Virus record (IMG/VR): IMGVR_UViG_3300035698_024184 | Location: 1 to 64,000 of that record | Strand: one strand, 5' to 3' | Length of the DNA: 64,000 bases | Origin: a virus | In this document: positions 11,676-33,044 of the stretch, piece after piece | Numbering within the stretch: position 1 is the first letter of the stretch | Layout: each line of letters opens with the position of its first letter | Notes under the pieces: model-generated | Databases searched by the model: none | What the model was told of the DNA's origin: nothing | The model's input: only the letters and a program-made list of their open reading frames with translations | Program-made: the position numbers and the translations under genes

Positions 11676-11816
11676 TTATATTTTTGAAAGTATAATAATC
11701 CATGCAAATAATATAAACAAACTACCAATTATTATACACGTAACTGGTGAACAAATTTGAGCCATAAATACACTCGCACTTACTAAACTTCCCACTATAT
11801 AAATATCATCTCTCAT
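11676..11816 (-). CDS. Small membrane protein (46 aa), paralogue of 8822-8962
   Basis: ATG 11816 (GGGATTAAA upstream) opens MRDDIYIVGSLVSASVFMAQ, then a long hydrophobic stretch (TCIIIGSLFILFAWIIIL). Two transmembrane helices are likely. Same length and same N-terminal motif as 8822-8962, 2.8 kb away. Confidence 0.6.
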   Translation of the reverse strand: MRDDIYIVGSLVSASVFMAQICSPVTCIIIGSLFILFAWIIILSKI

Positions 11817-14311: not shown

Positions 14312-14657
14312 TAATTATACCTCTTTTTCGTTTTTTATTAAAATCCTGAAATTGTCTTATTTTCTTAAATACAAATTTATTCTTATTTATTTTAGATAAT
14401 TTTAAATAAATTGCATTAACATCTACTTCCATTCCTTCAAATACACAATCTTTTTCTTTACATCCATGTAAAACATAACAAGGTAAAAATATATCTACAA
14501 TATCATCAATTTTTTGACTAACTTTAATTTTTTCTGTAATTTCACAAACAATTTTACGAGAACGAATTTCAATAACTCGAAACCATGTACCATAAATATC
14601 AAAACAACAATCTATAGAAATTTCACCAGATTTCAAAGCTTTTTTACGAACACCCAT
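14292..14657 (-). CDS. Hypothetical protein (121 aa)
   Basis: Start at ATG 14657, supported by GGAGGT 4 nt upstream and overlapping the reductase stop; the longer frame only shadows the reductase C-terminus. Beta-rich N-terminal half (EISIDCCFDIYGTWFRVIEI), a LPCYVLHGCKEKDC motif and a very basic end. No family recognised. Confidence 0.5.
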   Translation of the reverse strand: MGVRKKALKSGEISIDCCFDIYGTWFRVIEIRSRKIVCEITEKIKVSQKIDDIVDIFLPCYVLHGCKEKDCVFEGMEVDVNAIYLKLSKINKNKFVFKKIRQFQDFNKKRKRGIINGWKRR

Positions 14658-17600
14658 TACTACCTCCACAATCTCGACATACATAACATTTACCACCAGC
14701 CGTAGTCTGAATGTTATGTGAACCACAAAAAATACACATTCGTCCATCTTTAACATCTATATTATCGTCTTTTATACTAACTATTTTTTCATCATCTTCA
14801 TTATTAATAAAATTTATCCAATTTTCACCATTATCATTTAATTCTTTCAAAAAACTAAAAATATAATCAGTCAAACTTCTCGTTGTTTTTAATGCCCTTA
14901 GTTTGTCTCCAGTAAAACCATTTGGTTCAAAAACAATTCCGTGCATTTTATCATATAATTCATCTATATCAATTCCACTTTGTAAACAATAACTAATTAA
15001 TATTCCAATAGTATCAGCTAATCCCGCAAAAGTTGACCCTTCCTTAGAACAAGTAATAAATACTTCTAAAGGACGATAAATTTTGGAACAAAATCCCACA
15101 TGAATATAGCCACTTAATGTTCCTATTTGAAAATGTTTTCTAATTGATAACACTACATCAGGAAGTTTATATCGAATAGGCTTAGGAATTACCTCTTTTA
15201 TAATTTCTTTTTCTATTTTTGTTTTATTATAAACATCACAAACCTTACTTTTAGCTCGATAAAGTGCAATACATTTTAAACCCATTTCCCATGCTTTTAT
15301 AAATGTATTCTTTATATCTTCCACAGTAGCTTTTTCTGGAAGATTTACAGTCTTACTAATAGCCCCTGTTAAAAACTGTTGAGCCGCTTTCATAATTCTA
15401 AGATGCCCATCAACAGAAATTGCTTTTTCTTTCAAATTAATTGGAACAGCAACAGCAAAAACCTCTTCATGTTCTTTTTTCAACAATGGACACCCAATAA
15501 TAGTTTTGTTCTTTAATAGATAATCTTTAATAGTTTTAATATCATTTTCATTATAATTTAGTGTTCGTAATCCTCTTTCTACACTAGAATTAACCATCAA
15601 CAACTCTTCACCTTCAAGTATAGATTTAGTTTTAACTAAACAATACTCTGGTTCAATTCCAGTTGTATCACAATCCATCATTAAACTAATGGTCCCCGTA
15701 GGAGCCAATAATGTAAGATGTAAATTTCGTAAATCTAATTCAGGAAAGGACCAATCTAATTTAGTATCAAATTTTTTAACTAAAGATAAATTTACCATCT
15801 TTTTACAAGTATTAACCGAAACTTTATTATACTTTATTAAATTTCCACGAATTTTGCACCTAACTTCGGGTGTTACTTTTACACCTACCCCCACAATTTC
15901 TCCTAATTCAATCGATGTTTTCATTGCTTTATGAGTTAAAAAAGCCGTTAAAAATTCAGTTATAACTTCTGCTTCCATAGAATCATAAGCTACGCCTATC
16001 GACATAAATAAACTACCTAAATTTGTATAACCTAACCCAATAGGACGATATTCATGTGAATTATCTTCAATTTCCTGTGTAGGATAACCACTTAAATCAA
16101 TTAATATATCCTGAGCAATAAACATAGTTCTTATTACTTCACCAAATTCCTCATAATCAAATTTATCTTCTTTCATAAATTTTAATAAATTAATACTAGC
16201 TAAATTACAAGCACTATTATCAACAAAAACAAACTCAGAATTATGTACAATAACTCCTGGATGTTCTCTATCTCCAGCAACAATAAAATTATGATAATCT
16301 TCTACTTCTATATCATAAACCGCACATTCTCTAACTTCTTTATACCAAACTGAATTTACTCTAGTTTCTTTATAACTCATAAAAAATTGAGCTTGTTGTA
16401 ATACAGTATTTGGTTTTAAATCTTTTGCTGCTACCCATTCACCAGAAGCTAATAAATACTTATGCTCTGGAGTTGACAAAAGTATAGTTTCTTTATTAGT
16501 TGTTACTTCAACTAATTCAGTTGTATAACCAGAACACCAAACCTTTTTTATTTGAGCAAATCGTAATTTTTGATTTTGTTTATCATATACTAATGCTTTT
16601 GGTAACTCTTTTCTCCCTATTAAATCTTCTATTTTAACACGACCACCCGCAATTTCTACATAAGTATTCCCTACAAAACAACAAGGATTTGTCCCTCTAA
16701 TTTCATCAGTAACAAAAGAATCTTCTTGCATACGATCCCCAAAATGAACTCCTGGATCACCACACTTATGAGCATTTTCACAAAGTTGATTAAACAATTC
16801 TAATCCATTTACTTTTTCAAACTCGGCATCATTACGATTCTCTAAATAATACTCTTCTTCTTGTAAAACCATTTGTTCCATAAATGAATCAGGAATACGA
16901 ACTGATATATTAGCATTTTGATAAGCTACACTATTAACAGCCTCTCCATTAAACTCTTGTGAATAACCAAAATCAATTAAAGCTCGAATTTTATCTTCCT
17001 CTTTTGCTTTACAAGAAATCCATTCAAATATATCAGGATGATCTATATCTAAACTAAATAATTCTGCGGCTCTTCTTGTAACACCTCCTGATTTTACCAC
17101 TGACGCAATAGCATCATATATCTTAAAAAAAGATAGTGGCCCCGAAGGACTACCCCCACCAGTCAACTTTTCATTACACCCCCTAATTTTAGACATATTA
17201 ATTCCTACCCCACTACCTTGTTTAAATACATTAGATAATACACTCATTGCTCCATTAATAGAATCCATATTATCTTCAATGCCATAAATAAAACAAGCAG
17301 AACTTTGAGGATCTTCTTGAATACCTACATTAAAATAAACAGGGGAATTAAATGCTGCAATTTGATGATATTGTATATACAAAAGCGCTCTTCTAAATTT
17401 TTCTTTTTCAGTTTCATTAAAATATTCCTTTTTAACTCCTTCATCCGCAATATTTTTAGCCACACGATCTAAAACCTGTACAACACTAACTTCCTTTAAA
17501 ATTGTACTATTTCCTCCATACATATACTTAGTAGCCATAGTACGAACAGCCTGATCGGACCATTTTGGAGGAGCTAAAACTTCTACTTTTTCACCTCCAA

Positions 17601-17661
17601 ATAATTTGATAAAACGTAATTCTTCAGGAAATTTTTTATTATAATCAGAAAACGTCAACAT
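14644..17661 (-). CDS. nrdJ: Class II (B12-dependent) ribonucleotide reductase with mini-intein
   Basis: 1005 codons from ATG 17661. Typical class II motifs: AFNSPVYFNVG near residue 102, SACFIYG at 121 (redox Cys), GSGVGINMSK at 149, the NxCxE thiyl-radical site, ACNLASINL near 484, and LAPTGTISLM (loop with TGT). The end carries a CxxC...CxxC knuckle (CIFCGS and CYVCRDCGG), usual for thioredoxin-linked re-reduction. It converts ribonucleotides to deoxyribonucleotides with adenosylcobalamin and oxygen-independent chemistry. A 147-residue intein interrupts the NPC-SE active-site motif; the mature enzyme would be 858 residues. It follows the GroES-like gene with no gap and overlaps the next gene. 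Confidence 0.92.
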   Translation of the reverse strand: MLTFSDYNKKFPEELRFIKLFGGEKVEVLAPPKWSDQAVRTMATKYMYGGNSTILKEVSVVQVLDRVAKNIADEGVKKEYFNETEKEKFRRALLYIQYHQIAAFNSPVYFNVGIQEDPQSSACFIYGIEDNMDSINGAMSVLSNVFKQGSGVGINMSKIRGCNEKLTGGGSPSGPLSFFKIYDAIASVVKSGGVTRRAAELFSLDIDHPDIFEWISCKAKEEDKIRALIDFGYSQEFNGEAVNSVAYQNANISVRIPDSFMEQMVLQEEEYYLENRNDAEFEKVNGLELFNQLCENAHKCGDPGVHFGDRMQEDSFVTDEIRGTNPCCFVGNTYVEIAGGRVKIEDLIGRKELPKALVYDKQNQKLRFAQIKKVWCSGYTTELVEVTTNKETILLSTPEHKYLLASGEWVAAKDLKPNTVLQQAQFFMSYKETRVNSVWYKEVRECAVYDIEVEDYHNFIVAGDREHPGVIVHNSEFVFVDNSACNLASINLLKFMKEDKFDYEEFGEVIRTMFIAQDILIDLSGYPTQEIEDNSHEYRPIGLGYTNLGSLFMSIGVAYDSMEAEVITEFLTAFLTHKAMKTSIELGEIVGVGVKVTPEVRCKIRGNLIKYNKVSVNTCKKMVNLSLVKKFDTKLDWSFPELDLRNLHLTLLAPTGTISLMMDCDTTGIEPEYCLVKTKSILEGEELLMVNSSVERGLRTLNYNENDIKTIKDYLLKNKTIIGCPLLKKEHEEVFAVAVPINLKEKAISVDGHLRIMKAAQQFLTGAISKTVNLPEKATVEDIKNTFIKAWEMGLKCIALYRAKSKVCDVYNKTKIEKEIIKEVIPKPIRYKLPDVVLSIRKHFQIGTLSGYIHVGFCSKIYRPLEVFITCSKEGSTFAGLADTIGILISYCLQSGIDIDELYDKMHGIVFEPNGFTGDKLRALKTTRSLTDYIFSFLKELNDNGENWINFINNEDDEKIVSIKDDNIDVKDGRMCIFCGSHNIQTTAGGKCYVCRDCGGSNGCS
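16240..16680 (-). mobile_element. Mini-intein in ribonucleotide reductase
   Basis: Residues 328-474 of the precursor. It starts at Cys328 (CFVGNTYVEI, block A), has STPEHKYLL (TxxH block B) near 396, VYDIEVEDYHNFIVAG (block F) near 448 and ends GVIVHN (block G, His-Asn) followed by Ser475 as the +1 nucleophile. At 147 residues there is no room for a homing endonuclease, so it is a mini-intein. It lies exactly between the radical Cys327 and the Ser-Glu of the NxCxE motif, so the enzyme is inactive until splicing. Confidence 0.93.
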
Positions 17662-17943
17662 TTACTCTTCATCCTCATCTAAATAAGCCCACACACTTTC
17701 TTCGGAAATAAAATATAATTTTTCTTTAGTATCATATACAATATTATCTTTCAAAGACGCAATTATTTTTTGCCCTACATAAAAATTGGATTCTCCATCT
17801 TCAATATGAACAGCCCTAACTACACAATAATCTTCAACTTTAAATTGCTTTGTATTACTTGGTATTGCAATTTGACCAATTTTTTTAATAGGAACAAGTT
17901 GAACTAATAACCAACCATCCATCATCTTCATTTTTTCAATCAA
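17662..17943 (-). CDS. GroES/Cpn10-like protein (93 aa)
   Basis: TTG 17943 is preceded by AAGGAG with 7-nt spacing; ATG 17931 is the alternative. The pattern DGWLLVQLVP..K..GQIAIP....KVEDYCVVRAVH......F.VGQKIIA, then ..YFISEESVWAYL reproduces the Cpn10 beta-barrel (start strand, mobile-loop position, valine-glycine strand, C-terminal strand). Phage Cpn10-like proteins can replace host GroES for capsid folding. It sits between DpdA and the reductase and overlaps DpdA by 8 nt. Assignment is by pattern; the mobile loop is short. Confidence 0.5.
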   Translation of the reverse strand: MIEKMKMMDGWLLVQLVPIKKIGQIAIPSNTKQFKVEDYCVVRAVHIEDGESNFYVGQKIIASLKDNIVYDTKEKLYFISEESVWAYLDEDEE

Positions 17944-19642
17944 TGTTTATCTCCTTAGATTGTACCGTAACTACATCTCGTTCTTTTTCAGGGCCTTTAT
18001 TAAATCCCTTTAAAAATTCTCCAATAATACCCTTTCCACCTTTCGCTTTAATTTCAATAGATTCTTTTTCAGATATTAATTCAGTAACTCGTTCAATAAA
18101 ATCTAACATTCGATTCATTTCTAAAGATACATCTTTTGAAACTGCTCCACCTTCCATTTTTTCTACTAAAATAGCCCTCATAACTCTTTCATATTGAGCC
18201 GATAATAAATTCTGAATAATTAAAGGAAAATCTTTCGCATCGGCAATAGGTCTAACAAACTTATAACCACAAGTAGACCCTTTCTTATATCGAGGACAAT
18301 TAATAGCTATATGACATAAATCACATAATAAAGGCTGTAATAATCTATCATCAATACGATCTAAAACATCTTTATCTATTTTTTGTAAAGCCAAAACATA
18401 CTTATTTTTTTCAATAGCTTCTTGTTCTTGCTCTTCTGTAAACATTGGAGGTTTTAAATCATCTAAATTTTCAGGTGAATTATCCTTAGAATAATCTAAC
18501 CTAGGTTCAAATTCTTCTTCATCTTTCTTTATAATCGCTTTATCTTCCACCTTTTCATCTACAAAATTAAACTCCTGTACATACTTTCGTATTTCTTCTG
18601 GCATAGGGCTTCTTTGATTCAACTCTTTAGCTGCCACCTCAGTCATACCAAAATGACCATGCTCACAAGTCCCATATTGAATAAGCTTATCAATTTCTTC
18701 TCGATCTTTACCATTTAACCAATAAGAATTTTTAATACGAAGTTGCATCCAATCAGAAAAATCTTTCCACGCATAAAGACTCATTTTATCCACTTCAACA
18801 CTATCATCATCCATAATTTTATCAAAATTTAAATCTCGACTAATTATATAGTTTTTAAGGTACTTTCTAACTTTCTCCTTAATCTTATGATAATAATATC
18901 TCATGCGACCCTGTTCAAATCGCATTGTAACTCCAAATTTACTACCATCTTTCCAAGTAGTAGAATCCATAGAATAATAATAACTATCCCTAAATATATT
19001 TAGATCAGTTACTCCAAATCCATGAATCAAAATCCCTTCTTCAATACATCGCTCTATAAATTGACGACTCGTTGCACCAGATCCAGATCCACGAATAATA
19101 TGTAATGAACCAATAGCAATATAGGGGTAATCATCAAACCAACCCATACTATCCATTAATTCATAACTATAGTCTTGACATACAGGGATGACCAATATAC
19201 CCATCCCATTCAATCGCTGACGTTCTTTCTCACGATAGTCCCATCCTAACTCATCTACATCTACCTCTGCCGCTACATCAATCCACGCACGATTCTGAAT
19301 CAACCACTGATAATATGAATCTGCAAACTCCATTATCTCACTTTGTTGTATATCAGGTCTATTTCGTAGGGTATAACCACCCGAATCGACAAAAACAAAC
19401 TCAAACCGACCAAAATCCTCCTGTAAGTCCACAATTGACATATTACGAATTTTAGTTCGTAAATAGTAATATGAAACAAGTATATGCTTTACACCAACAG
19501 CATACATCATATCTCTAATACTTCGATCTTCGGCTCCAGCTAAAAGTATTTTAGGTCCATAATGCCTTTCCCCCAAAGTACGTCCTCTATCCCACTTATC
19601 TAATATACTATCAGCTTTAGAATTTACACGCTCATAATTCAT
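17936..19642 (-). CDS. dpdA: DpdA-like DNA transglycosylase (7-deazaguanine insertion into DNA)
   Basis: 568 residues. N-terminal TIM-barrel of the tRNA-guanine transglycosylase superfamily: VFVDSGGYTLRN at 84-94 (the DSGG(F/Y) loop with the catalytic Asp), EVDVDELG near 126-133, YIAIGSLHI near 174-182, GFGVTD at 208 and MDSTTW at 225-230. DpdA enzymes swap guanine in DNA for a 7-deazaguanine. After the catalytic domain there are ~250 further residues with a Cys cluster (C440, C443, C449, C458; CxxC-x5-C-x8-C) which may hold zinc. It is ATGA-coupled to the radical-SAM gene and downstream of QueC/FolE/QueE/QueD. A pure tRNA enzyme is less likely because the whole pathway is clustered with it. 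Confidence 0.8.
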   Translation of the reverse strand: MNYERVNSKADSILDKWDRGRTLGERHYGPKILLAGAEDRSIRDMMYAVGVKHILVSYYYLRTKIRNMSIVDLQEDFGRFEFVFVDSGGYTLRNRPDIQQSEIMEFADSYYQWLIQNRAWIDVAAEVDVDELGWDYREKERQRLNGMGILVIPVCQDYSYELMDSMGWFDDYPYIAIGSLHIIRGSGSGATSRQFIERCIEEGILIHGFGVTDLNIFRDSYYYSMDSTTWKDGSKFGVTMRFEQGRMRYYYHKIKEKVRKYLKNYIISRDLNFDKIMDDDSVEVDKMSLYAWKDFSDWMQLRIKNSYWLNGKDREEIDKLIQYGTCEHGHFGMTEVAAKELNQRSPMPEEIRKYVQEFNFVDEKVEDKAIIKKDEEEFEPRLDYSKDNSPENLDDLKPPMFTEEQEQEAIEKNKYVLALQKIDKDVLDRIDDRLLQPLLCDLCHIAINCPRYKKGSTCGYKFVRPIADAKDFPLIIQNLLSAQYERVMRAILVEKMEGGAVSKDVSLEMNRMLDFIERVTELISEKESIEIKAKGGKGIIGEFLKGFNKGPEKERDVVTVQSKEINID

Positions 19643-20694
19643 CTATAATCTCGATGTAAAAAATGTTGTTGACCTACTTTTGAATTTCTCATCCACTCTG
19701 CCATACAATGTGTTGACCAAAAACAACCCAAACAATATTTAGAAACTGCTTCTTTATGATCTCTAATAAACTTTTTAAACTTTTTATTAACTTCGCTACT
19801 TTCGTGTACCCCAGGATTTTCAAAATCAAATATCGAATATTTATTTATTAAAGGATGCCAAAAATCATCACAACCACCTAAATACCCATCTGCATCCACA
19901 GTTATAGAATCTGGGTAAGAACACTTCCATTTAAGATTAACATAATCAGGATTTTTCCACATTTCAAACACCTCATCCGTCTGAAACATCATATAATTCT
20001 TTGATTTATACATCTGAATTAACTCATCAGCTACTTTTCCTAAAGCTTTATAATCTTGAAAACAAAGATTTTTAATTTCTGATTTATCTACTGCAAATTC
20101 ATTCCATTTATTTCTAGCCCAATGAAGTAGGTCCACCTGTGTCCATATCCCTAATTTAGTTTGTTCTCGAATTATCGTTGGAATCTCTCTAAAATTAAGA
20201 TTAGTTGCACAAATTGTACCAGTTACATCTCTTAATCCTAATTCAACAAATTTGCGTAAAATTTTTCTTCCCCACAAAGTTTTTAATCCTATATGAGTAC
20301 GAAGATTTAACGCATAACTATTTGAAAAATCGATACTTGCAGTCCAGCTATCAAGCCCTACTTCCATCATTTTTTCCATCTTTTCAGTTGTTAAACCAAT
20401 ACAATTAGAAAGAATACTAAAACTATGCCTCCTTTTATCATGTCTACTACAGTAACTAATTAGTTCAATTAAATCATCACCTAATAAAAGAGGCTCACCC
20501 CCATAAAAAGCAATAAAAGTAGCCCCTAAATCGAAATAAATTATATCCGTAGCCCTTTTCCATTGCTCTAAAGTAAGTTCTTTCCACTCTCGTCCTAAAC
20601 GTACAGGAGGTTTCTTTAAATTACAATAAGAACAATCTAAATTGCATTTTCGAGTTAATAAAACCTCGGCTTTTAATATTTTTTGTTTATTCAC
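19639..20694 (-). CDS. Radical SAM enzyme with SPASM-like C-terminus
   Basis: GTG 20694 (or TTG 20697) start. CNLDCSYC at residues 17-24 is the canonical CX3CX2C [4Fe-4S] site of AdoMet radical enzymes; GGEPLL follows near 65. The C-terminal third holds further cysteines (KCSYP, GGCDDF, KYCLGCFWSTHC), as in SPASM/twitch domains that bind auxiliary clusters. Such enzymes catalyse difficult C-H chemistry on peptides or small molecules. It is distinct from QueE, the usual radical SAM enzyme of this pathway. Wedged between QueC and DpdA with overlaps on both sides, so a step on the deazaguanine or on its sugar decoration is plausible, but not shown. Confidence 0.85.
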   Translation of the reverse strand: MNKQKILKAEVLLTRKCNLDCSYCNLKKPPVRLGREWKELTLEQWKRATDIIYFDLGATFIAFYGGEPLLLGDDLIELISYCSRHDKRRHSFSILSNCIGLTTEKMEKMMEVGLDSWTASIDFSNSYALNLRTHIGLKTLWGRKILRKFVELGLRDVTGTICATNLNFREIPTIIREQTKLGIWTQVDLLHWARNKWNEFAVDKSEIKNLCFQDYKALGKVADELIQMYKSKNYMMFQTDEVFEMWKNPDYVNLKWKCSYPDSITVDADGYLGGCDDFWHPLINKYSIFDFENPGVHESSEVNKKFKKFIRDHKEAVSKYCLGCFWSTHCMAEWMRNSKVGQQHFLHRDYR

Positions 20695-21418
20695 CAATTA
20701 ATTGAAACTTTCCTTTGTCATAAGCTTCTTTTGCCCATAAAATTCTTTTATTACGTTTTTCCGAATAATAATTATTTTGACCTCGTTCCAAATACATATT
20801 CCCAACTTTTGTACCCCACATATCCTCTTCACAAACTTCATAATAACCATTATTTAATAAAGCAATTTGTCTTCGTAAACAAGCGCCACATTTTCCACAT
20901 GCTCTATCAGTTTCTCCATCATAACAACTTCTAGTACAACGTATCAATGTTACCATAGATAATCCTTTACTAATATAATAACTAATCATATCAGTTTTAT
21001 CCATATTATTAAATAATGTTCTAAAACTAAACTTTTTATTTGGCATTAGTTTTTGTAAAAGAATTTCTGCTTCTAAATAAAATATTAATTCTCGATCAGG
21101 AATTGAATGTTCATCCTGTTGAGTAATTAATAAAATTGAACCTTCTATTTCTAATACTTGCACCGCCTGCATAAAAAGATACAAATTCCTCATAGGAATA
21201 TTTCCATCTGCTTCTTCATATGCTCCTAAATCTAAACGAGAAGCATATTTGAGTCGCATCTCTGGATGTTCTAACTGACATCTTAATAAAGCCTCTATCT
21301 CTTTTCCCATATATTTATGACACAAAGGTACATTAACACACACTGGTTTATCTAAACAATGCCAAGCAATATAAGAATCCATACCACCAGAAAATAATAA
21401 CAAATCTATATTATTCAT
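20687..21418 (-). CDS. queC: QueC-like 7-cyano-7-deazaguanine synthase
   Basis: 243 residues. PP-loop LLLFSGGMDSYIAW at 6-19 (ATP pyrophosphatase), and a C-terminal zinc site C165, C174, C177, C180 (SCYDGETDRACGKCGACLRR). QueC converts 7-carboxy-7-deazaguanine to preQ0 with ATP and ammonia. No glutamine amidotransferase fusion is present, so amide (ADG) formation is not indicated here. Start ATG 21418 overlaps the upstream small gene. Confidence 0.85.
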   Translation of the reverse strand: MNNIDLLLFSGGMDSYIAWHCLDKPVCVNVPLCHKYMGKEIEALLRCQLEHPEMRLKYASRLDLGAYEEADGNIPMRNLYLFMQAVQVLEIEGSILLITQQDEHSIPDRELIFYLEAEILLQKLMPNKKFSFRTLFNNMDKTDMISYYISKGLSMVTLIRCTRSCYDGETDRACGKCGACLRRQIALLNNGYYEVCEEDMWGTKVGNMYLERGQNNYYSEKRNKRILWAKEAYDKGKFQLIGE

Positions 21419-21560
21419 CTTTTATAATTTCTTCATCATTTAATTTTCGTGTTACTAACTTTATTTTTCCATTTAAATGAGCTAATATATCTTCTATTCC
21501 TTTTTTAACACCTTCATATAATTTTTTATCAGAACAATTATTTTTCTTATCTTTTTTCAC
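21411..21560 (-). CDS. Small protein (49 aa), GTG start
   Basis: GTG 21560 overlaps the TAG of the glycosyltransferase gene; ends TAA 21411, overlapping QueC. KKDKKNNCSDKKLYEGVKKG, then IEDILAHLNG and a basic/acidic tail (KLVTRKL). The pattern 'L.EGL..ai..l.G....tr.v' resembles antitoxin-like/HTH leader peptides of phages, but too short for a firm call. Confidence 0.5.
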   Translation of the reverse strand: MKKDKKNNCSDKKLYEGVKKGIEDILAHLNGKIKLVTRKLNDEEIIKDE

Positions 21561-22426
21561 TAATTAACCCCAATATATTCTAACTGTTTCTCAATAGAAA
21601 CACCATAGTCTTTTTCAATTGTTTCTGGTATAGACTTAATAAAATAACCTCTTTTTATAACTTCAGTACCTGGAGAAGTCAAAAAGTGCTCCTTTACCCA
21701 CTGTTTCTTTGCAATATTCTTTTCATACAAAAATTTCCAAATATCTAATTCACTACGATAACCATTTATTATTCGTCTCCAACCTTTATTTTTAGCATCT
21801 CCTGGCCTACTACATAAATGTAATAAATGAGTTTCCAAATCAAGTACTCCAGTACATCCTTTTGCAGACATCATTAAAGATGCTAATACATCTTCTCCAA
21901 TATGATTCCAATCTTTCCACCAATCAAAATAATTAGCCATTTTCAACGCATCTTTAGTATAGGCACACCCCGACATAGCCACTGCATCAATAGGACAATA
22001 CCCCTCTCGTATTTTGTACCAACTGGAATCATTATGAGGATGAATAATACCTGGACTATAAAAGTCATAACCTGCTGAAATAGCATAGTGTATTCTTTCA
22101 ATAAAATTAGAAGGAACTAAAACATCATCATCTAATATTATAATAGCATCACTCTCTTTAGCAATATACTCACACATTGTATAGCGAATTTCTGCATAGC
22201 ATAAACTTTTAGTAGTTTTAAATATTATTTCAACTTTTGTACCCCTATTACGATGAGTCTCCAATAAACCTAAAATTACATCGTCTAAACCAACTTTACC
22301 TTCTAAACTAACATAATCAAAAATTAAAGTTAATCTATTTAATCCAACCTTTTGTTGTAATAAACTACTTAACGGAAACATTAATCGTTCTGATTTATTA
22401 GCTGCTAATATAGCTTGATAATTCAC
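21560..22426 (-). CDS. GT-A-type glycosyltransferase-like protein 3
   Basis: GTG 22426 with AGGAG upstream. GT-A fold features: N-terminal AILAANKSERLM..., IIILDDDVLVPSNFIERI with a DDD (DxD-type, metal/nucleotide-sugar binding) near residue 97, and HIGEDVLASLMM (a conserved acidic helix, base candidate) near 180. It is likely a family-2-like transferase. Clustered with two others between FolE and QueC, so a substrate within the base-modification pathway is plausible. Confidence 0.65.
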   Translation of the reverse strand: MNYQAILAANKSERLMFPLSSLLQQKVGLNRLTLIFDYVSLEGKVGLDDVILGLLETHRNRGTKVEIIFKTTKSLCYAEIRYTMCEYIAKESDAIIILDDDVLVPSNFIERIHYAISAGYDFYSPGIIHPHNDSSWYKIREGYCPIDAVAMSGCAYTKDALKMANYFDWWKDWNHIGEDVLASLMMSAKGCTGVLDLETHLLHLCSRPGDAKNKGWRRIINGYRSELDIWKFLYEKNIAKKQWVKEHFLTSPGTEVIKRGYFIKSIPETIEKDYGVSIEKQLEYIGVN

Positions 22427-23273
22427 AATTTTCTCCTATTAATAAGCTCCGCAAAAATTTCACATCGTATTCCCGATTATACTCTTTACAAATTTGTTCG
22501 CCCAAAAATTTCTCTGAAAAATGTGTTGTATAAAGATTACCTGGATAATGATTTAAATATTGTATAACAGTATCCATATTTGTTAATTTAATAAAAGTTT
22601 TTAATACATCTAACTTCTGTAAAATCCCAAAAGAACTGGCACTAGATGAATCTTTTTCTAAAATTAATTTCATATCAATTAAAGTACAATCCGTACAACA
22701 TTTTACTATCTTATTATTTTTCCACAATAAAAAACTAAATAAAGAATCAATATTTCCTATTAAATCTTGACCTAATTTAGTATAATTTTCGCATAAAAAT
22801 TTAGCACTATTTTGACTATAAAAAACAACCTTATCAGAAAAACTTACTGAATCAAAACACCAATCAGTTTTGTAAATTTTTTGACCAAATTCTGCTACTT
22901 TATAATATAATACATCAAAAATCATTTGAGATAATCGATAATCAAAAGAAGCTAATATTTCACTATCTAAAATAACATTAGCATCAATATTACAAATCCA
23001 AAATGCAGACCCATATTTTAAATTTCGCATTCTCATATCATATAAACTTTTCTCTTTCTTTGAAAAAGTTATATGTTCAACATGAATCCCTCTTTTTAAT
23101 AACATATCTAAAACAATATGCAATTCTTTTTTTCCAATAGATATCCCATCTTCAAGAATTACAATACGAGATACATATTTATCTATTAATTTTCTATCCA
23201 TTACTAAAAAGGTTTGTAATACACGAACTAAAGAATTTGTTCGATTATTAGTCGAAATTAGAAAATCTATCAT
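22398..23273 (-). CDS. Glycosyltransferase-like protein 2, with degenerate DxD
   Basis: MIDFLISTNNRTNSLVRVLQ start typical for GT-A family-2 proteins. At the usual DxD position it reads NIDANVI, so metal binding may be weakened or lost. The C-terminal half is divergent, with several Cys. It may be inactive, a substrate-recognition subunit, or use another motif. Overlaps both neighbouring glycosyltransferase genes. Confidence 0.55.
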   Translation of the reverse strand: MIDFLISTNNRTNSLVRVLQTFLVMDRKLIDKYVSRIVILEDGISIGKKELHIVLDMLLKRGIHVEHITFSKKEKSLYDMRMRNLKYGSAFWICNIDANVILDSEILASFDYRLSQMIFDVLYYKVAEFGQKIYKTDWCFDSVSFSDKVVFYSQNSAKFLCENYTKLGQDLIGNIDSLFSFLLWKNNKIVKCCTDCTLIDMKLILEKDSSSASSFGILQKLDVLKTFIKLTNMDTVIQYLNHYPGNLYTTHFSEKFLGEQICKEYNREYDVKFLRSLLIGENCELSSYISS

Positions 23274-24088
23274 TTACCAAATTCCTCATTAAAATTTAAA
23301 TCTAATTTCAAACAATCTCTTTTAAGAACTTCAATAACATTTTGAAATGGTTTTCCAGGAAAATCACCCATTAATTCCCAAAAGAAATTCTTACCAAATT
23401 CACGATAAATAATTTTCCAAACTTTAATATGATATAAAGGTTCCTGACTATAAATTTTTTGATTATCAGTTGCTAATACTTTACAATTTACAACACATAT
23501 TGGAATTGCCTTTCCAATATATCCTTTTTTTATTATTTTTATTCCAAATATAGTATCATCACCCAGAAAAAAATTAAGTAAACCACAATGTGAATAATAA
23601 TCAACCTCTTCAATTACTTCTCGTCTAAGCATTACACAACCACCATAAACATTTTTAGTATTCATAGCTTTTTGTAAACATATCTCTTTTTTTCGTCTAT
23701 CATCCACTTCATAGTAATAAACCGGAACAACAAATCCAACTTTTTGCTCTTTTAAAACTTTTATTCCTATTTCTAAAAGATTTGAAGGAATCACCATATC
23801 ATCATCTACAATTAAAACATATTGATTTTTTACCTGTCGAAGTAGAACATCTTTTGCCCAACCTCCATGTTTAGTAGGAAATGGATTATATATAATTTTT
23901 ATATCCACTCCTAAATTTCGTAAAACTTCTAAATACCTCTGAAAAAAGGTATTTTTAGCTACTATAGTATCCTTACAACCATCAAAATAGATAATTAAAC
24001 GATCAAATTTTTGAGTCTGTACAACCAATCCCGCTAAAACAGTTATAATAACTCCAGGATTATTTGTTGCTATTAAAACATCAATCAT
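23270..24088 (-). CDS. GT-A-type glycosyltransferase-like protein 1
   Basis: 272 residues, ATG 24088 overlapping the FolE TGA. MIDVLIATNNPGVIITVLAG start, IIYFDGCKDTIVAKN, QYVLIVDDDMVIPSNLLEI (DDD motif near residue 95) and FFLGDDTIFGIKI (acceptor-side acidic motif near 175). A family-2-like glycosyltransferase fold is clear. Sugar and acceptor cannot be read from sequence. Confidence 0.7.
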   Translation of the reverse strand: MIDVLIATNNPGVIITVLAGLVVQTQKFDRLIIYFDGCKDTIVAKNTFFQRYLEVLRNLGVDIKIIYNPFPTKHGGWAKDVLLRQVKNQYVLIVDDDMVIPSNLLEIGIKVLKEQKVGFVVPVYYYEVDDRRKKEICLQKAMNTKNVYGGCVMLRREVIEEVDYYSHCGLLNFFLGDDTIFGIKIIKKGYIGKAIPICVVNCKVLATDNQKIYSQEPLYHIKVWKIIYREFGKNFFWELMGDFPGKPFQNVIEVLKRDCLKLDLNFNEEFGK

Positions 24089-24627
24089 TTCTGAATCCCA
24101 ATTAAATTAAAAAATTCTTCTTTATCTATATCCCCATGATAAGCACACGTCATAGTATTAACATTCGGAGCCTTTACTCCTCTTACTGACATACACATAT
24201 GACAAGCCTCAACTACTGCAATTACATTATGCGGCTTTACTACATCATATATATAATCCACAATTTCTTGTGTCAACACTTCTTGTATTTGTGGTTTTTT
24301 AGCAAAATAATCAACAACTCGAACAATTTTGGATAATCCCACTAATTGTTCATTTGGTAAGTAACCTACATGAGCTACCCCTACAAAAGGAATTAAATGA
24401 TGTTCACACATCGATCTAACTGGAATATTAAATAGAGTAACCAATTGATCGACTTTTTTTTCATTAGGAAACACCTTTAGCACAGGTGGTTCGGTTTTTA
24501 AACTAGAAAATATCTCACTATACATTCTCGCTACTCGTTGTGGCGTTTCTAACAGTCCAGGTCTATTTATGTCTTCACCAATCTCTTGTAGTATAAATCT
24601 AACAGCATTTTCAATTTTTTTATTCAT
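24085..24627 (-). CDS. folE: GTP cyclohydrolase I
   Basis: 180 residues. RPGLLETPQRVARMY near residue 22, MCEHHLIPFVGVAHVGY with Zn ligands C74 and H77, and EACHMCMSVRG with C145 (third ligand). It converts GTP to dihydroneopter in triphosphate, the first step toward 7-deazaguanines and folate. Its place between QueE and the glycosyltransferases makes the deazaguanine route more likely. Length close to the bacterial enzyme. Confidence 0.93.
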   Translation of the reverse strand: MNKKIENAVRFILQEIGEDINRPGLLETPQRVARMYSEIFSSLKTEPPVLKVFPNEKKVDQLVTLFNIPVRSMCEHHLIPFVGVAHVGYLPNEQLVGLSKIVRVVDYFAKKPQIQEVLTQEIVDYIYDVVKPHNVIAVVEACHMCMSVRGVKAPNVNTMTCAYHGDIDKEEFFNLIGIQK

Positions 24628-24629
24628 TT

Positions 24630-24920
24630 TTAATTAACTATATTAGAATTAGGAACCACAATTTGGGGTGTTTGTACCTGTGCTCGTTTTTGTTTTTGTA
24701 TAAAATTCATTTGTATAGGCATATCTACTAAACTAACTTGTAAATTAGTTAAAATAAAGCCTGTTTCCATTAATGATAATCCCTGTGTAACCACATTATA
24801 ATTATTTTTAGGTTCTTTTACTCCAATTAAAAATCCTTCAGCTTCTATTTCCGTTTTTTCACCTTTTGGATCTTCTAATGTAATTTTCCAAATATTATCT
24901 TTTTTAACTTCTTCACTCAT
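24630..24920 (-). CDS. Hypothetical protein (96 aa) within the deazaguanine cluster
   Basis: ATG 24920 overlaps the QueE TAA (TAATG). Beta-rich acidic N-terminus (IWKITLEDPKGEKTEIEAEG) and a Gln/Val-rich, possibly disordered C-terminal part. No recognised motif. It lies between queE and folE, so a supporting role is possible but unsupported. Confidence 0.5.
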   Translation of the reverse strand: MSEEVKKDNIWKITLEDPKGEKTEIEAEGFLIGVKEPKNNYNVVTQGLSLMETGFILTNLQVSLVDMPIQMNFIQKQKRAQVQTPQIVVPNSNIVN

Positions 24921-25591
24921 TAAGCAACTCCCAGTATTTTATGTATTTGTACTTGAACCTGTATATCACAATATTTAACATCTTTTACTATTTCTTCAAC
25001 AATTCGTTTCCCCATCAAAAACTCACCTGAAACATAACATGGAGAAAAAAAACAACTAATTTTACATTCTATCACTTTTTTAAACCAAAGATATAAATTT
25101 AAAGCATTCATTAAATCATCTTCATCTTTAATTACAAACTTTATACAATCACCATCTTTATACTAACCAGTAATATTTCTAGGTATTTGTCCTTGTAACT
25201 CACGATCAATTTTAGCAGAATTTAATTTAACATCCCAAGAAACACTAATATATTTACGATTTTCTGGTAAAAAATAAAACTCAATTATACTATTAGTTTC
25301 AATATTAATTTTACAATCAGGAATTTCTCGTATTAATTGTATAACTAACTCTCGTAATTCTTCTAATTGACAACAAGGTTCCCCACCAGTAATACAAATA
25401 TATTTTGAATTTAATTTTTTTACTTTCTTAACTATTTCAGATATAGAAATTAACTCACCATTTTTAAAATCTGTGTCGCAATAGCTACAATTTAAATTAC
25501 ATTTTGAAAAACGAACAAAAACTGTAGGAAATCCAGTATATAAACCCTCTCCCTGAATTGATTTAAAAATTTCTTTTATTTCTATTTTCAT
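24920..25591 (-). CDS. queE: 7-carboxy-7-deazaguanine synthase QueE, split by in-frame TAG
   Basis: ATG 25591 overlaps the QueD TGA (ATGA). Residues 1-142: IFKSIQGEGLYTGFPTVFVR and CNLNCSYC at 31-38 (radical SAM cluster), TGGEP near 68. Codon 143 is TAG (25163-25165). The same frame then continues with YKDGDCIKFVIKDEDDLM..., FFSPCYVSGEF and QVQIHKIL to TAA 24920, which is exactly the QueE C-terminal region. Together 224 codons, the usual QueE length. With TAG as a stop the enzyme lacks its last third. No ribosome site precedes the downstream half. QueE makes carboxy-deazaguanine from carboxytetrahydropterin. Confidence 0.8.
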
Positions 25592-25959
25592 TGTATTATC
25601 ACTGGATATTGAGCAAACGCATCTTTTGTTTCCCAAACACGAACTCCACAAACTTCCGATAAAGCTTTTTTCATTACATTATATATCCATACACAAATAT
25701 TTTCAGCCGTTGGATTCTCCATATAATCATTTAAGTATTGATGATCCAATACATTATTTACTAATGTATCCCATATATCAGATACATCATGGAAATCAAT
25801 TACCATACCCTGTTTTGCACCTTTAATTTGAATTTTACCCTTTATATAAATCCGAACTTTATAAGAATGCCCATGTATATTTTTACAATGATGCTCAACA
25901 TGTGGTAAACGATGGGCCATTTCTAATTCAAAATCTTTCGTAATTAATATTTCACTCAT
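25588..25959 (-). CDS. queD: 6-carboxytetrahydropterin synthase QueD
   Basis: 123 residues. Zn ligands H16, H29, H31 (MAHRLPH and NIHGHSY), catalytic-type C25 just before, and VWETKDAFAQY near the C-terminus with the substrate-binding Glu. It turns dihydroneopterin triphosphate into 6-carboxytetrahydropterin. Ends at TGA overlapping QueE. Confidence 0.9.
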   Translation of the reverse strand: MSEILITKDFELEMAHRLPHVEHHCKNIHGHSYKVRIYIKGKIQIKGAKQGMVIDFHDVSDIWDTLVNNVLDHQYLNDYMENPTAENICVWIYNVMKKALSEVCGVRVWETKDAFAQYPVIIQ

Positions 25960-26422: not shown

Positions 26423-26626
26423 TATTACAATCCTCTAATAATTTGTTATGTACCACCTCATACATAGGAATTATCCCAAGACGCAAACACTGCCTAATAA
26501 TACTTACTGTCTTTTAGCTTCTACTGTTTCACAATCAACTAAAATCTCTTCCCAATCTTTAGTATCATTGTATTTATTTACTCTATTAATTCGATCATAT
26601 AAAGTATTATATGTTAATTTATCCAT
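26415..26626 (-). pseudogene. Small gene (~70 aa) with apparent -1 frameshift
   Basis: ATG 26626 starts MDKLTYNTLYDRINRVNKYN... and hits TAA 26504-26506. From the AAAA run at 26512-26515, the -1 frame gives KTVSIIRQCLRLGIIPMYEV, then VHNKLLEDCNNE up to TAG 26415, which has no start codon of its own and reads as good protein. A slip back by one base at GCT AAA AGA, or one missing A, restores a single ~70-residue protein. Its start overlaps the SpoVS-like gene end. Confidence 0.5.
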
Positions 26627-27032
26627 TAAGAAGTTCCTTATCTGTAATAAGTATCTTTCCACTATTTAATACAATAGGACGAATAACACCAATACTAATA
26701 CTTTTTTCTTGAAATTCCTTTTGTTCACAATTTGGACATTTAATTGCCTTTTCAGCAAACCAAAATCGTCCACAATTACTACATTTATAATTTTTCTTTC
26801 CTTCTAAATTATCAACATCAACGAATCCTAAAGAAAAAACACAAACAATTCCTTTACGACTTAATTCAACAGCAGCCCATGAACAGGCTTTTTGAGCTTG
26901 ATACATAGCACCATGCCCGACACCTCGAACTACCACTTCTTTACGATCAAAAACAAAAGAAAATATAGCTCTTCCAACTTTTTGAACAGAACTATCATTT
27001 TTTACACGAATTTCGATTACATCTTCTTTCAT
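26619..27032 (-). CDS. SpoVS-like (Alba-fold) domain with zinc ribbon (137 aa)
   Basis: Residues 1-75 (IEIRVKNDSSVQKVGRAIFS..., later RGVGHGAMYQAQKACSWAAV) follow the SpoVS pattern of an Alba-like nucleic-acid-binding fold. From 80 a zinc ribbon (YKCSNCGRFWFAEKAIKCPN then CEQ). Such fusions suggest binding to nucleic acid. ATG 27032. Confidence 0.55.
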   Translation of the reverse strand: MKEDVIEIRVKNDSSVQKVGRAIFSFVFDRKEVVVRGVGHGAMYQAQKACSWAAVELSRKGIVCVFSLGFVDVDNLEGKKNYKCSNCGRFWFAEKAIKCPNCEQKEFQEKSISIGVIRPIVLNSGKILITDKELLNG

Positions 27033-27041
27033 AAAAAAACC

Positions 27042-27623
27042 TCAATTATTTAACATTTGAATTTCTAATGAACTACGACGAGTCATTTCTCTTGAAACTG
27101 CACTATAAATACGATCATAATTATAAAACATCGTTTTCATTATTGTTTTCTTAACTTCTACACCAACTAATTTCGATTGAGTAAGTAGTACTCTTCTATG
27201 TTTATTTGCCGCCACTTTTTGATTTGTAACGTTACTTTGTAAAGATTTTTCTTCATATATTGCTACATTCAATACATAATCCGCTAATGATTCTGAACAA
27301 GTACATTGGGCATCTAATAAAGCTAATTCTACAGCCGCATAATTACACCAACATGTAGCTTTTGTTGCCAATTGTCCCAATTCTGGAGCAGATAATTTTG
27401 TTAAATCCTCCGGCATTTTCGGAGTTTCTAAAACAGGTCGCCAATCAATAGTAAACCCTTTTTCACTTAAAACTTTCTTAGCATCAGAAACAGACTTAAA
27501 ACTTGTTTCAAAATCACAATTAGAACAATATGGCCCAACCATTAACTGTCTACATTGTGGACATCTTCCATCTAATAAAGTTTCATAAGTTGGTTCTTTT
27601 GATTTTTCAACAATTTCACTCAT
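27042..27623 (-). CDS. Zinc-ribbon protein (193 aa)
   Basis: Start ATG 27623 (MSEIVEKSKEPTYETLL). N-terminal four-Cys ribbon CPQCRQLMVGPYCSNCD (residues ~22-38), then a helical domain with several Cys (ATCWCNYAAVEL, CTCSESLADY). The helical part may be a recombination-mediator or clamp-like module; no known family identified. Confidence 0.5.
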   Translation of the reverse strand: MSEIVEKSKEPTYETLLDGRCPQCRQLMVGPYCSNCDFETSFKSVSDAKKVLSEKGFTIDWRPVLETPKMPEDLTKLSAPELGQLATKATCWCNYAAVELALLDAQCTCSESLADYVLNVAIYEEKSLQSNVTNQKVAANKHRRVLLTQSKLVGVEVKKTIMKTMFYNYDRIYSAVSREMTRRSSLEIQMLNN

Positions 27624-27633
27624 TTTAATCACC

Positions 27634-28599
27634 TTATACGATATTTGTTAATATACTATACTCTTCAAAAGAATAGTTTTTATGACAATAATCTATCATA
27701 GAACATTTTGAACAAGTACCTTTTGCCTGCTCTATTGAAGTATTTAAATCTGGTAAAGTTTTGTTCATAATATGTTCACTACCACATACCATAAAATCCA
27801 TCTGTTGCTTAAACCTTTTAGCATCAAATGATACATTATGCTCTCTTCGAGCCGCAGTATTTTTATTAAAATATATTATAACCCCATTTTTTACAGGTTC
27901 CTTAATATGAGAATGCCATTGTGATAACCCCATATACATATTTAACTGGTCATAATGTTCGGATTTTGGGCCTACCACAACATTATTAAATCCCCATTCA
28001 TTAATAGTCTTAAATTCTAAAAATACAGGAATATCCAAATTTAATAATCCATCACAATGACCAGAAACTTTTGGAAATTCTAACTTAAAAGGAACTTCTC
28101 GATATTCTAAACCACCAACAAACTCATTACAATAAACACATCCCATATAATTAGTAGTTTCTTTAACTTCTCGTTTACAACGGGGGCAATTTTTCCAAAC
28201 TTTAAAACCACAATCAGGACAACCAGATTTATACATGGGATTCTCTGCCCAAAATTCTTTTTCACAAGAAGGACAAAACCACATTCCCTCTAACAACATA
28301 CCTCGTGAAAGATTTTGTTGAACCATATTATGACAACCTGTTCCAATATTAAAAATTGTCATAACCTTAGAATCAAAACGTTTATATTCTACAATATCCC
28401 TAGAAATAATTCGCTCTAAAACTGCCGCTCGAATACAACCCAAAGAAGCCATTTGAGAAGGATGAAAACTTATATCATTTTCTTTTGGTTCTTGTTGAGC
28501 CGAAACCAATAAATCATTATAATAAGACAAAAACCTTATTTTTTGAGCTTGTTGTACCTGTTCCTCTGTTTTACCAGCCAAACGATCATTTAACTTCAT
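27634..28599 (-). CDS. Cas4/RecB-like PD-(D/E)XK nuclease with zinc knuckles
   Basis: 321 residues, ATG 28599 with AAAGGAG. Region 95-150 inserts zinc knuckles (FCPSCEKEFW..., CPDCGFKVWKNCPRC, CVYC). The nuclease core is at ~170-230: GHCDGLL (Asp), VFLEFKTI (ExK) and a following EHYDQLNMYMG (QxxxY helix). A C-terminal Cys cluster (GTCSKCSMIDYCHK) fits a Cas4-like Fe-S site. It probably processes DNA ends in replication/recombination. Confidence 0.65.
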   Translation of the reverse strand: MKLNDRLAGKTEEQVQQAQKIRFLSYYNDLLVSAQQEPKENDISFHPSQMASLGCIRAAVLERIISRDIVEYKRFDSKVMTIFNIGTGCHNMVQQNLSRGMLLEGMWFCPSCEKEFWAENPMYKSGCPDCGFKVWKNCPRCKREVKETTNYMGCVYCNEFVGGLEYREVPFKLEFPKVSGHCDGLLNLDIPVFLEFKTINEWGFNNVVVGPKSEHYDQLNMYMGLSQWHSHIKEPVKNGVIIYFNKNTAARREHNVSFDAKRFKQQMDFMVCGSEHIMNKTLPDLNTSIEQAKGTCSKCSMIDYCHKNYSFEEYSILTNIV

Positions 28600-30384: not shown

Positions 30385-31275
30385 TCATATCTTTATAGTA
30401 TACAAACTCTTTAAATTACGAAATTTATTTCCCAATCCCATTCCACAACCAATAATAAATGCCTCTACTGGTACTTTCCATCCCGCCCATTTTTGCTCCT
30501 TATTTTTTCTAACCAAAGAACAAACTTGTATATCCTCAGAGGAAAGTATAGACCTAATAAACTCAATTGTATTTCCTGTATCTACAATATCATCCAATAT
30601 TAAAACAGCATCATTTTTATCTACCTCTAAATCTAATGGATAAGTTAATTCAGGAGTTTTAATTGCCTGAACATCTTTTTCATAAGATGAAACACCTATA
30701 AACCCATAATCAAATTCAAATTTAAAATATTCCATTATCTTAAATGCAAACCAAACTCCTCCTTTTAATGGAATTATAATTTTTACAGGCTGTTTTATAT
30801 TACCATAACAAATATTTATATATTCACTTAATTTTTTAATACGATCTTCCACTTCACGTGCAGTTTTAAATAACTCTAAATTAGAAATATTTTCTTTTTT
30901 TGGATGATAATGCCCACCATCATCAACTTTCATACCACCGTCTAAAATTAATACTTCATCTACAGCTTTCTTCCAATCACCCCTATATCCAACTCCACGA
31001 TCATCAATATAAGCAATCGCCACAGGCTTATCAGCCTCAATAATACCAGTATAAGGTAACTGATGTTCTTTCATAAATTCTTTAATTATATCTACATGCT
31101 TTTTATTAATCGTTCCCCAATAAGTAGAATTTCGACAAGAATGAATCCAAATTTCAAATCCAGCCTTAATTAATCTCTCCAATCCTTCTTTAACTCCTGG
31201 TTCTAAAGAACCAACATCAGGAAATTTATGCTGACATATTGTACCATCAAAATCAATACAAACTACTTTACTCAT
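30385..31275 (-). CDS. HAD-like phosphatase fused to phosphoribosyltransferase
   Basis: ATG 31275 (GGAG upstream; TAATG overlap with the metalloprotease gene). Residues 1-125: HAD fold with VVCIDFDGTI (DxD at 8-10), IHSCRN (Thr/Ser motif) and YIDDRGVG (acidic motif). Residues 160-236: PRTase with a PLKGGVWFA PP-loop at 169-177 and VLILDDIVDTGNT (PRPP motif) at 224-236, as in hypoxanthine/xanthine-guanine transferases. The two halves together could first dephosphorylate and then phosphoribosylate (or reverse) a base or nucleotide. An unusual fusion in a phage; substrates unknown. Confidence 0.75.
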   Translation of the reverse strand: MSKVVCIDFDGTICQHKFPDVGSLEPGVKEGLERLIKAGFEIWIHSCRNSTYWGTINKKHVDIIKEFMKEHQLPYTGIIEADKPVAIAYIDDRGVGYRGDWKKAVDEVLILDGGMKVDDGGHYHPKKENISNLELFKTAREVEDRIKKLSEYINICYGNIKQPVKIIIPLKGGVWFAFKIMEYFKFEFDYGFIGVSSYEKDVQAIKTPELTYPLDLEVDKNDAVLILDDIVDTGNTIEFIRSILSSEDIQVCSLVRKNKEQKWAGWKVPVEAFIIGCGMGLGNKFRNLKSLYTIKI

Positions 31276-32060
31276 TATACTAACTCCGTTTGACACTGTT
31301 TTTGTAACCAATGTGATACCATATCACAAATTTTTCCTTCACCAATTCGTTGCTCTACAGTATAATCCTTAGTACCCAATAACAAATGAGATAACTCATG
31401 GCTAATAACAGAAGAATAACGAAACAACCATTGAAAATCTTCCATAATAGGAACAAACCCTTGAGAATCCACAGGAATAGCAGGAATTAAATTCCAATCA
31501 ATAAACTTTCTATTAATATAAATACGCTTATCACATACCATCATAATAATATTATCTATTTTCTTTTTATTTTTTATTTGTTTTTCTGAACAACTAACAT
31601 TTAAACTAATAGTATTTGTAATATCTCCAACTACAATTTGATCTATATCATATTCACATTTAGCTAATTCTTTAATTACTGTCTTAAAAAATTCACATAT
31701 TCGATTTTCTCGATCATTTAATGGCCCTCGATTACTAATAGTCAACTTTTCTTTTGGAACTCGAATATCACTTATATCAATTCCTTTTGGATGGTTTTTT
31801 AATAATTTTCTCTGAACATCACCAGAAATAATAATAACATCATATCCTAATTCTCGTAATAAACTTACTTTAAATAATTGACTAGAAATATAATAATCTA
31901 ATCCAAATATAAATATATCCTTCTTCATTAAATCATCCCAAGTATACTCACTAGTATCATCTATATTAAAAATATTTATTTCTTGAGATAAAGTGTGTAA
32001 TATATCTTTTTGACTCATCAATCCAATATCCAAATTAGAATCTTCATTCTTTCCAGCCAT
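31275..32060 (-). CDS. HExxH metalloprotease-like protein (C-terminal part behind TAG)
   Basis: From ATG 32060 the product has 261 residues; HELSH at 221-225 is a zinc-protease motif in a SSVISHELSHLLLG helix. The frame actually continues upstream without a stop to TAG 32142-32144, coding DRYLTEEELQKLVKFGLKSG, then FNKVYDE. No ribosome site precedes ATG 32060. The N-terminal part otherwise has no recognised motif. It shares its frame with the GHKL ATPase, so one long protein of 584 residues would form by TAG readthrough. Confidence 0.6.
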   Translation of the reverse strand: MAGKNEDSNLDIGLMSQKDILHTLSQEINIFNIDDTSEYTWDDLMKKDIFIFGLDYYISSQLFKVSLLRELGYDVIIISGDVQRKLLKNHPKGIDISDIRVPKEKLTISNRGPLNDRENRICEFFKTVIKELAKCEYDIDQIVVGDITNTISLNVSCSEKQIKNKKKIDNIIMMVCDKRIYINRKFIDWNLIPAIPVDSQGFVPIMEDFQWLFRYSSVISHELSHLLLGTKDYTVEQRIGEGKICDMVSHWLQKQCQTELV

Positions 32061-32141
32061 TTCATCATATACTTTATTAAATCCTGATTTAAGCCCAAAT
32101 TTTACTAATTTTTGTAACTCTTCTTCAGTTAAATATCTATC

Positions 32142-33029: not shown

Positions 33030-33044
33030 CACAATACTCTATTA

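Follow-up and report, generated by a model that had tools for sequence, protein, structure and literature searches.

The window, as we call the whole stretch of 64,000 nucleotides analysed here, covers most of a 64.8 kb record of an uncultured virus, a metagenomic contig, and has a G+C content of 31%. It carries phage replication genes for a polymerase, a primase, a DnaB-like helicase, a UvsX-like recombinase and an RNA ligase. On the minus strand, from 25959 down to 17936, lies an operon that holds every gene a sequence-only reading had named there, and family matches bear out their presence (Table 1). The genes are transcribed in the order QueD, QueE, a 96-aa protein, FolE, GT3, GT2, GT1, a QueC-like enzyme, a radical SAM enzyme and DpdA. 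Here, GT3, GT2 and GT1 are labels given in the order of transcription; GT2 also names a glycosyltransferase (GT) family, and the GT2 gene is referred to below as the middle GT.

Table 1. Genes of the operon, listed in the order of transcription, with the match or motif that identifies each.
Feature	Coordinates	Strand	Basis
QueD, 6-carboxytetrahydropterin synthase	25588..25959	-	PF01242 6.6e-34; TIGR03367 5.2e-29, over cut-off
QueE, 7-carboxy-7-deazaguanine synthase	24920..25591	-	phrog_2076 QueE-like 4.3e-28; one in-frame TAG
Small protein (96 aa), QueE/FolE interval	24630..24920	-	no confident family match
FolE, GTP cyclohydrolase I	24085..24627	-	PF01227 1.7e-61; TIGR00063 over cut-off
GT3, GT-A glycosyltransferase (GT2 family)	23270..24088	-	PF00535 1e-9, over cut-off; DDD at residue 95
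GT2 gene (middle), GT-A-like protein	22398..23273	-	weak BLAST to GT3; Foldseek matches
GT1, GT-A glycosyltransferase, GT3 paralogue	21560..22426	-	BLASTP to GT3 5e-7; DDD at residue 98
QueC-like ATP-dependent enzyme	20687..21418	-	PF06508 5.5e-14, over cut-off; alignments with canonical phage QueC and own clade
Radical SAM enzyme, auxiliary Cys domain (SPASM/twitch-like), distinct from QueE	19639..20697	-	PF04055 8.2e-17, over cut-off
DpdA-like DNA guanine transglycosylase	17936..19642	-	phrog_887 'queuine tRNA-ribosyltransferase' 1.3e-44, residues 31-534

Neighbouring genes overlap by 1-29 nt or are spaced by 2 nt (QueD/QueE -4, QueE/small protein -1, small protein/FolE +2, FolE/GT3 -4, GT3/GT2 -4, GT2/GT1 -29, QueC/radical SAM -11 and radical SAM/DpdA -4 nt), the sole exception being the gap of 141 nt between GT1 and QueC. 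The run extends past DpdA into a Cpn10-like gene and then a class II ribonucleotide reductase (RNR), and by its anatomy the stretch from QueD to the RNR is one operon. The 141-nt gap (21419-21559) contains, by eye, a short GTG-started frame that may be a small gene. The RNR (14644-17661) is adenosylcobalamin-dependent and is split by a mini-intein at about residues 328-475 (TIGR01445, TIGR01443).

Two further phages carry a related operon. L013 (IMGVR_UViG_3300018080_000009) was found by a FolE scan of viral contigs, and L028 (IMGVR_UViG_3300017991_000077) was found along with L013 by a radical SAM scan of viral contigs. This second scan was run without DpdA and returned only these two. Scanning viral contigs with one protein at a time (DpdA, GT1, GT3 or the radical SAM protein) gave no relatives. 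The sequences of a mixed DpdA alignment had diverged too far for use in a scan, and a DpdA DNA-motif scan produced three chance matches, which were discarded by tblastn.

In L013, the order is QueD-QueE-small-FolE-HAD-rSAM-small-GT2-GT4-DpdA (rSAM, radical SAM), with QueC in the same record about 12 kb upstream of QueD. Its dpdA operon includes a GT4-like gene (PF13579 8.8e-7), a GT2-family gene (PF00535 3.9e-16) and a gene whose product is related to the radical SAM enzyme over its full length. L028 reads QueD-QueE-small-FolE-HAD-QueC-rSAM-GT2-GT2-GT25-DpdA, with junctions that are mostly overlaps of 4 to 35 nt and a 173-nt gap ahead of the radical SAM gene; the genes of this cluster are all open. 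The HAD gene is separate in both operons; in the window, a HAD phosphatase at 30385-31311 is fused to a hypoxanthine/guanine phosphoribosyltransferase (TIGR01203 4e-27, below cut-off), and this fusion might salvage the guanine released by DpdA. Shortly downstream of DpdA in L028 (13594-14205), a protein without a Pfam or NCBIfam match starts, by eye, with a sulfotransferase-like GLGTGRCGT and could add a further group. L013 has two more adjacent radical SAM genes (L021 8358-9949, which is ~93.4-94.9 kb of the G001 record; PF04055 at 93558 and 94319).

Upstream of QueD in the window, at 26619-28599, lie a SpoVS-like-looking protein, a 196-aa protein and a PD-(D/E)XK-like-looking protein. Their order is partly kept in L013, L028, Bacteroides phage BS162P1 and gut phage MT835482, and the neighbourhood may therefore be older than its GT genes. 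DpdA itself lies in two parts in BS162P1 (L002 10100-11732) and MT835482 (L007 12722-15429), which may represent an intron, a frameshift or a true split.

FolE, QueD, QueE and QueC are all encoded in the window. The QueD and FolE assignments are clear, and small ORFs occupy the place between QueE and FolE in L013 and L028 as well, although they align only weakly with their counterpart in the window. No QueF match above cut-off was found in the window phage, L013 or L028, where sub-threshold matches occur at the FolE position only; the search control, phage R5C, scores 1.5e-31. Without QueF in the three phages, preQ1 is an unlikely product. The sequence-only reading had considered the gene set sufficient for preQ0. 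In that form this is not supported, as QueE contains an in-frame stop and QueC belongs to a clade without two substrate-site motifs.

The QueE frame is open from 25591 to 24920 apart from a single TAG at 25163-25165, and the gene is listed as two ORFs (25163-25651 and 24920-25111). Beyond the TAG follow 80 open codons, and the C-terminal end is still readable in one frame. The pathway could thus be decaying in this genome, so that truncated QueE would leave the phage with no 7-deazaguanine of its own, or dependent on QueE or preQ0 borrowed from the host. TAG is an ordinary stop elsewhere, ending 10 of 80 ORFs, or roughly one in eight of those on the minus strand of the window. In addition, one of the GTs lacks the DxD motif. 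However, the rest of the operon is open, as are the QueE genes of L013 and L028; the stop itself may be an assembly error, a strain variant or suppressed, and many hosts supply QueE. We therefore regard decay as quite improbable. Further in-frame TAGs occur at 32142-32144 in the window and at 11712-11714 in the radical SAM gene of L013, where L028 has Trp. The former separates an ORF that looks, by eye, like a GHKL ATPase from a following open frame in the same frame, with a possible joined frame at 31275-33032. Together, QueE, the L013 radical SAM gene and this possible joined frame raised the option of code 15, in which TAG is a sense codon. As a general code it was rejected on account of the ordinary TAG stops and the absence of internal TAGs from the other operon genes. 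The in-frame TAGs may reflect error, variation or suppression.

The QueC-like protein shares with canonical QueC (PF06508 cluster 1; Libby 2026, PMC13329287) the SGGxDS loop, the RN of VPxRN, the C-x8-CxxCxxC zinc site and the CY tyrosine. In contrast, when aligned with canonical phage QueC as a control, it carries HxYxxxE where the canonical enzyme has YxQxHxxE, and IPDR at the YPDC site. Both replacements are found in the QueC of all three GT-bearing phages (window, L013, L028), and gut phages of the same clade carry APDK at the YPDC position. In E. coli QueC, Y131 of YPDC must be aromatic for function and the Y131A variant is inactive (PMC13329287). By its motifs, the window protein is thus a member of a phage QueC clade lacking two substrate-site motifs of the canonical enzyme, and plain preQ0 is not assured as its product. 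In defence systems, relatives of QueC link 7-carboxy-7-deazaguanine (CDG) through an amide to the N-terminus of a protein (PMC13329287). The end product of the phage enzyme may therefore be ADG, or CDG joined to another amine.

DpdA of the window is 44% identical to that of L028 and 38% identical to that of L013, the latter two sharing 57%; to other phages, identity is at most 29% over the aligned parts. The role of CAjan DpdA in phage DNA has been shown genetically (PMC6884629), and BLAST against this protein gives E values of 4e-6 for the window and 4e-18 for L028. The motifs DSGG, HGFGVT and DST-x-W are invariant in L013 and L028 and probably form the transglycosylase active site. The C-terminal region carries CxxC-x5-C.

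The radical SAM enzyme has the CX3CX2C motif (CNLDCSYC). The earlier assignment to the SPASM type holds for the radical SAM core and, in part, for the auxiliary domain: five auxiliary cysteines (259, 276, 322, 325 and 331) are conserved in the three phages, fewer than in textbook SPASM domains, and we call the domain SPASM/twitch-like. No curated NCBIfam subfamily reaches its cut-off. A weak phmmer match (7e-4) links the protein to the cytosylglucuronate decarboxylase BlsE (7vob), a radical SAM enzyme that acts after a GT on a nucleobase-sugar. The substrate of BlsE is, however, a free nucleoside antibiotic intermediate, and the likeness is at the superfamily level.

As for the three GT-A genes that had been proposed, GT3 and GT1 stand, and the middle gene is doubtful. 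GT3 passes the PF00535 cut-off and is related to L028 GT-b (E=6e-7) and L013 GT-A (7e-5). GT1 resembles GT2-family profiles weakly (PF13632, E=0.003; PF00535 also weak) and is joined to the family by paralogy; both carry a DxD motif. The middle GT has no Pfam or NCBIfam match. At the position of the DDD of GT1 and GT3 it carries NIDAN, a degenerate metal motif, and it may have lost activity or changed its specificity. AlphaFold models it poorly (mean pLDDT 47), with an alpha/beta N-terminal part, and the top Foldseek matches of this low-confidence model are nearly all GT-A enzymes. For this protein and the radical SAM enzyme alike, the AlphaFold models are too poor to infer a function from. 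None of the GTs has a clear transmembrane segment, and among the scanned window genes none was recognised as serving nucleotide-sugar synthesis. The order and families of the GTs vary among the three phages, and nevertheless GT3, L028 GT-b and L013 GT-A are related, with the latter two matching at 63%. The variation in the GT set points to an exchange of the outer sugars from phage to phage around a fixed deazaguanine and radical SAM core.

The GTs are tied to the locus. PF00535 matches are confined to the dpdA operon in all three phages, and none of 15 other virus records with 7-deazaguanine genes has a PF00535 or GT2-family gene; the same search was positive in 14/14 control genomes. The contrast of 3/3 with 0/15 would correspond to p ~0.001 if the phages were independent, and their shared ancestral operon lowers its true weight. 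Our own radical SAM model finds just short QueE-like cores in 14 of the 15 other records. Deposited phage records that match L028 DpdA number 163; the L028 radical SAM protein is matched over its full length in none of them, and L028 GT-b has no match in deposited phages. From these distributions, the linkage of radical SAM enzyme, GTs and dpdA is evidently no accident. The far divergence of the relatives and the partial replacement of the GT set suggest selection for GTs at this locus over mere inheritance.

This linkage bears on what the GTs modify, which the generic GT-A sequence matches do not identify. DpdA might insert an unglycosylated 7-deazaguanine (preQ0, ADG or CDG), while the GTs, and perhaps the radical SAM enzyme too, have a different target, such as a small peptide, a protein of the virion or the surface polysaccharide of the host. 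The Foldseek list of the middle GT indeed includes the surface-polymer enzymes TarP, GtrB and chondroitin polymerase, and the radical SAM profile matches include the peptide maturases PapB and SCIFF as well as PqqE. The continuation of the operon to the Cpn10-like gene and RNR also means that not every member concerns the base. However, all three phages have their GTs inside the dpdA operon and no PF00535 match outside it, and the GT families change while the radical SAM enzyme and DpdA stay. Together with the lack of transmembrane segments and of a recognised precursor peptide, this makes a target other than DNA unlikely. DNA is the putative sugar acceptor, as suggested by the linkage and by a weak match of L028 GT-b to the TAGT (TET-associated glycosyltransferase) profile (E=0.0047, below cut-off). 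T4 DNA glucosyltransferases have a GT-B fold. These enzymes and TAGT add sugars to modified DNA bases in phages, but their acceptor is hydroxymethylcytosine or an oxidised pyrimidine and not deazaguanine. Phage glycosylation of other DNA bases is known from T4 (PMC13216743).

Glycosylated 7-deazaguanines do occur in tRNA, as galactosyl- and mannosyl-queuosine (galQ, manQ; PMC8654956). The operon could therefore boost or alter a queuosine-type modification of host tRNA, with the GTs making a glycosylated queuosine-like base. Animal tRNA offers the precedent of a sugar on a 7-deazaguanine-derived base (PMC8654956, PMC7384130), and QueD, QueE and QueC are common to both pathways. In animal tRNA, however, the sugar sits on the cyclopentene diol of Q; the three phages have no QueF and hence no route to preQ1, no Q-synthesis gene is seen in the operon, and the transglycosylase matches phage DpdA and not a tRNA TGT family. 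We consider a tRNA target very improbable.

Compared with known DNA-modifying phages, the operon shares with the CAjan (dPreQ0 group) and 9g (dG+) types the combination of FolE, QueD, QueE, a QueC-family enzyme and DpdA, and base exchange in phage DNA (Hutinet 2019, PMC6884629). The six reference phages CAjan, JenP2, R5C, Sonali, StAugustine and ZHS differ in having no GT2-family gene, in a single PF04055 match each, which is a QueE-type core only, and in a QueC that is canonical or GAT-fused. In the literature covered, the 7-deazaguanines reported from phage DNA bear small 7-position groups (preQ0, preQ1, ADG, G+). No description of a dpdA operon with GT genes turned up in the literature search, which lacked Cui 2023 and the 2024 MMBR review.

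Taken together, the L013 and L028 operons, the confinement of PF00535 matches, the overlapping genes and the lack of transmembrane segments make a glycosylated or otherwise extended 7-deazaguanine, as first suggested from the window sequence, the best reading. The two further phages raise it from a guess to a supported hypothesis, and the descent of all three operons from a common ancestor, which makes them not fully independent, weakens it. The in-frame TAGs of the window QueE and the L013 radical SAM gene, the missing DxD of the middle GT, the generic nature of GT-A similarity and the lack of a recognised nucleotide-sugar gene also count against it. We estimate a probability of roughly 0.6 that the operon yields a glycosylated or otherwise hypermodified 7-deazaguanine in phage DNA, which would block restriction and similar defences. 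In the proposed pathway, FolE, QueD and QueE would convert GTP to CDG. The QueC-like enzyme would activate the carboxylate with ATP and form an amide or nitrile, and DpdA would replace guanine in phage DNA with the 7-deazaguanine, the base being decorated either after or before this exchange. From the linkage, we infer that the radical SAM enzyme would extend the 7-position group, which would then be extended by GT-A transfer of sugars from host nucleotide sugars. The system would be a variant of phage 7-deazaguanine DNA modification, and the base itself could be new. A bolder proposal, held tentatively and at somewhat less than even odds, is a new class of DNA base. Its 7-substituent would be the work of a QueC-like ligase of non-canonical type together with a dedicated radical SAM enzyme, and interchangeable GT modules would cap it with a sugar or a short glycan, such that the glycans differ between related phages.

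If a glycosylated 7-deazaguanine is indeed formed, it would combine base exchange with sugar capping, both of them strategies against restriction, and DNA modification would gain a step that depends on a radical SAM enzyme. A clear prediction follows from the conserved core and its interchangeable GTs, and it is testable by heterologous expression without phage culture. The QueC clade, in turn, provides a test of whether QueC-like enzymes beyond defence systems also form new amides.
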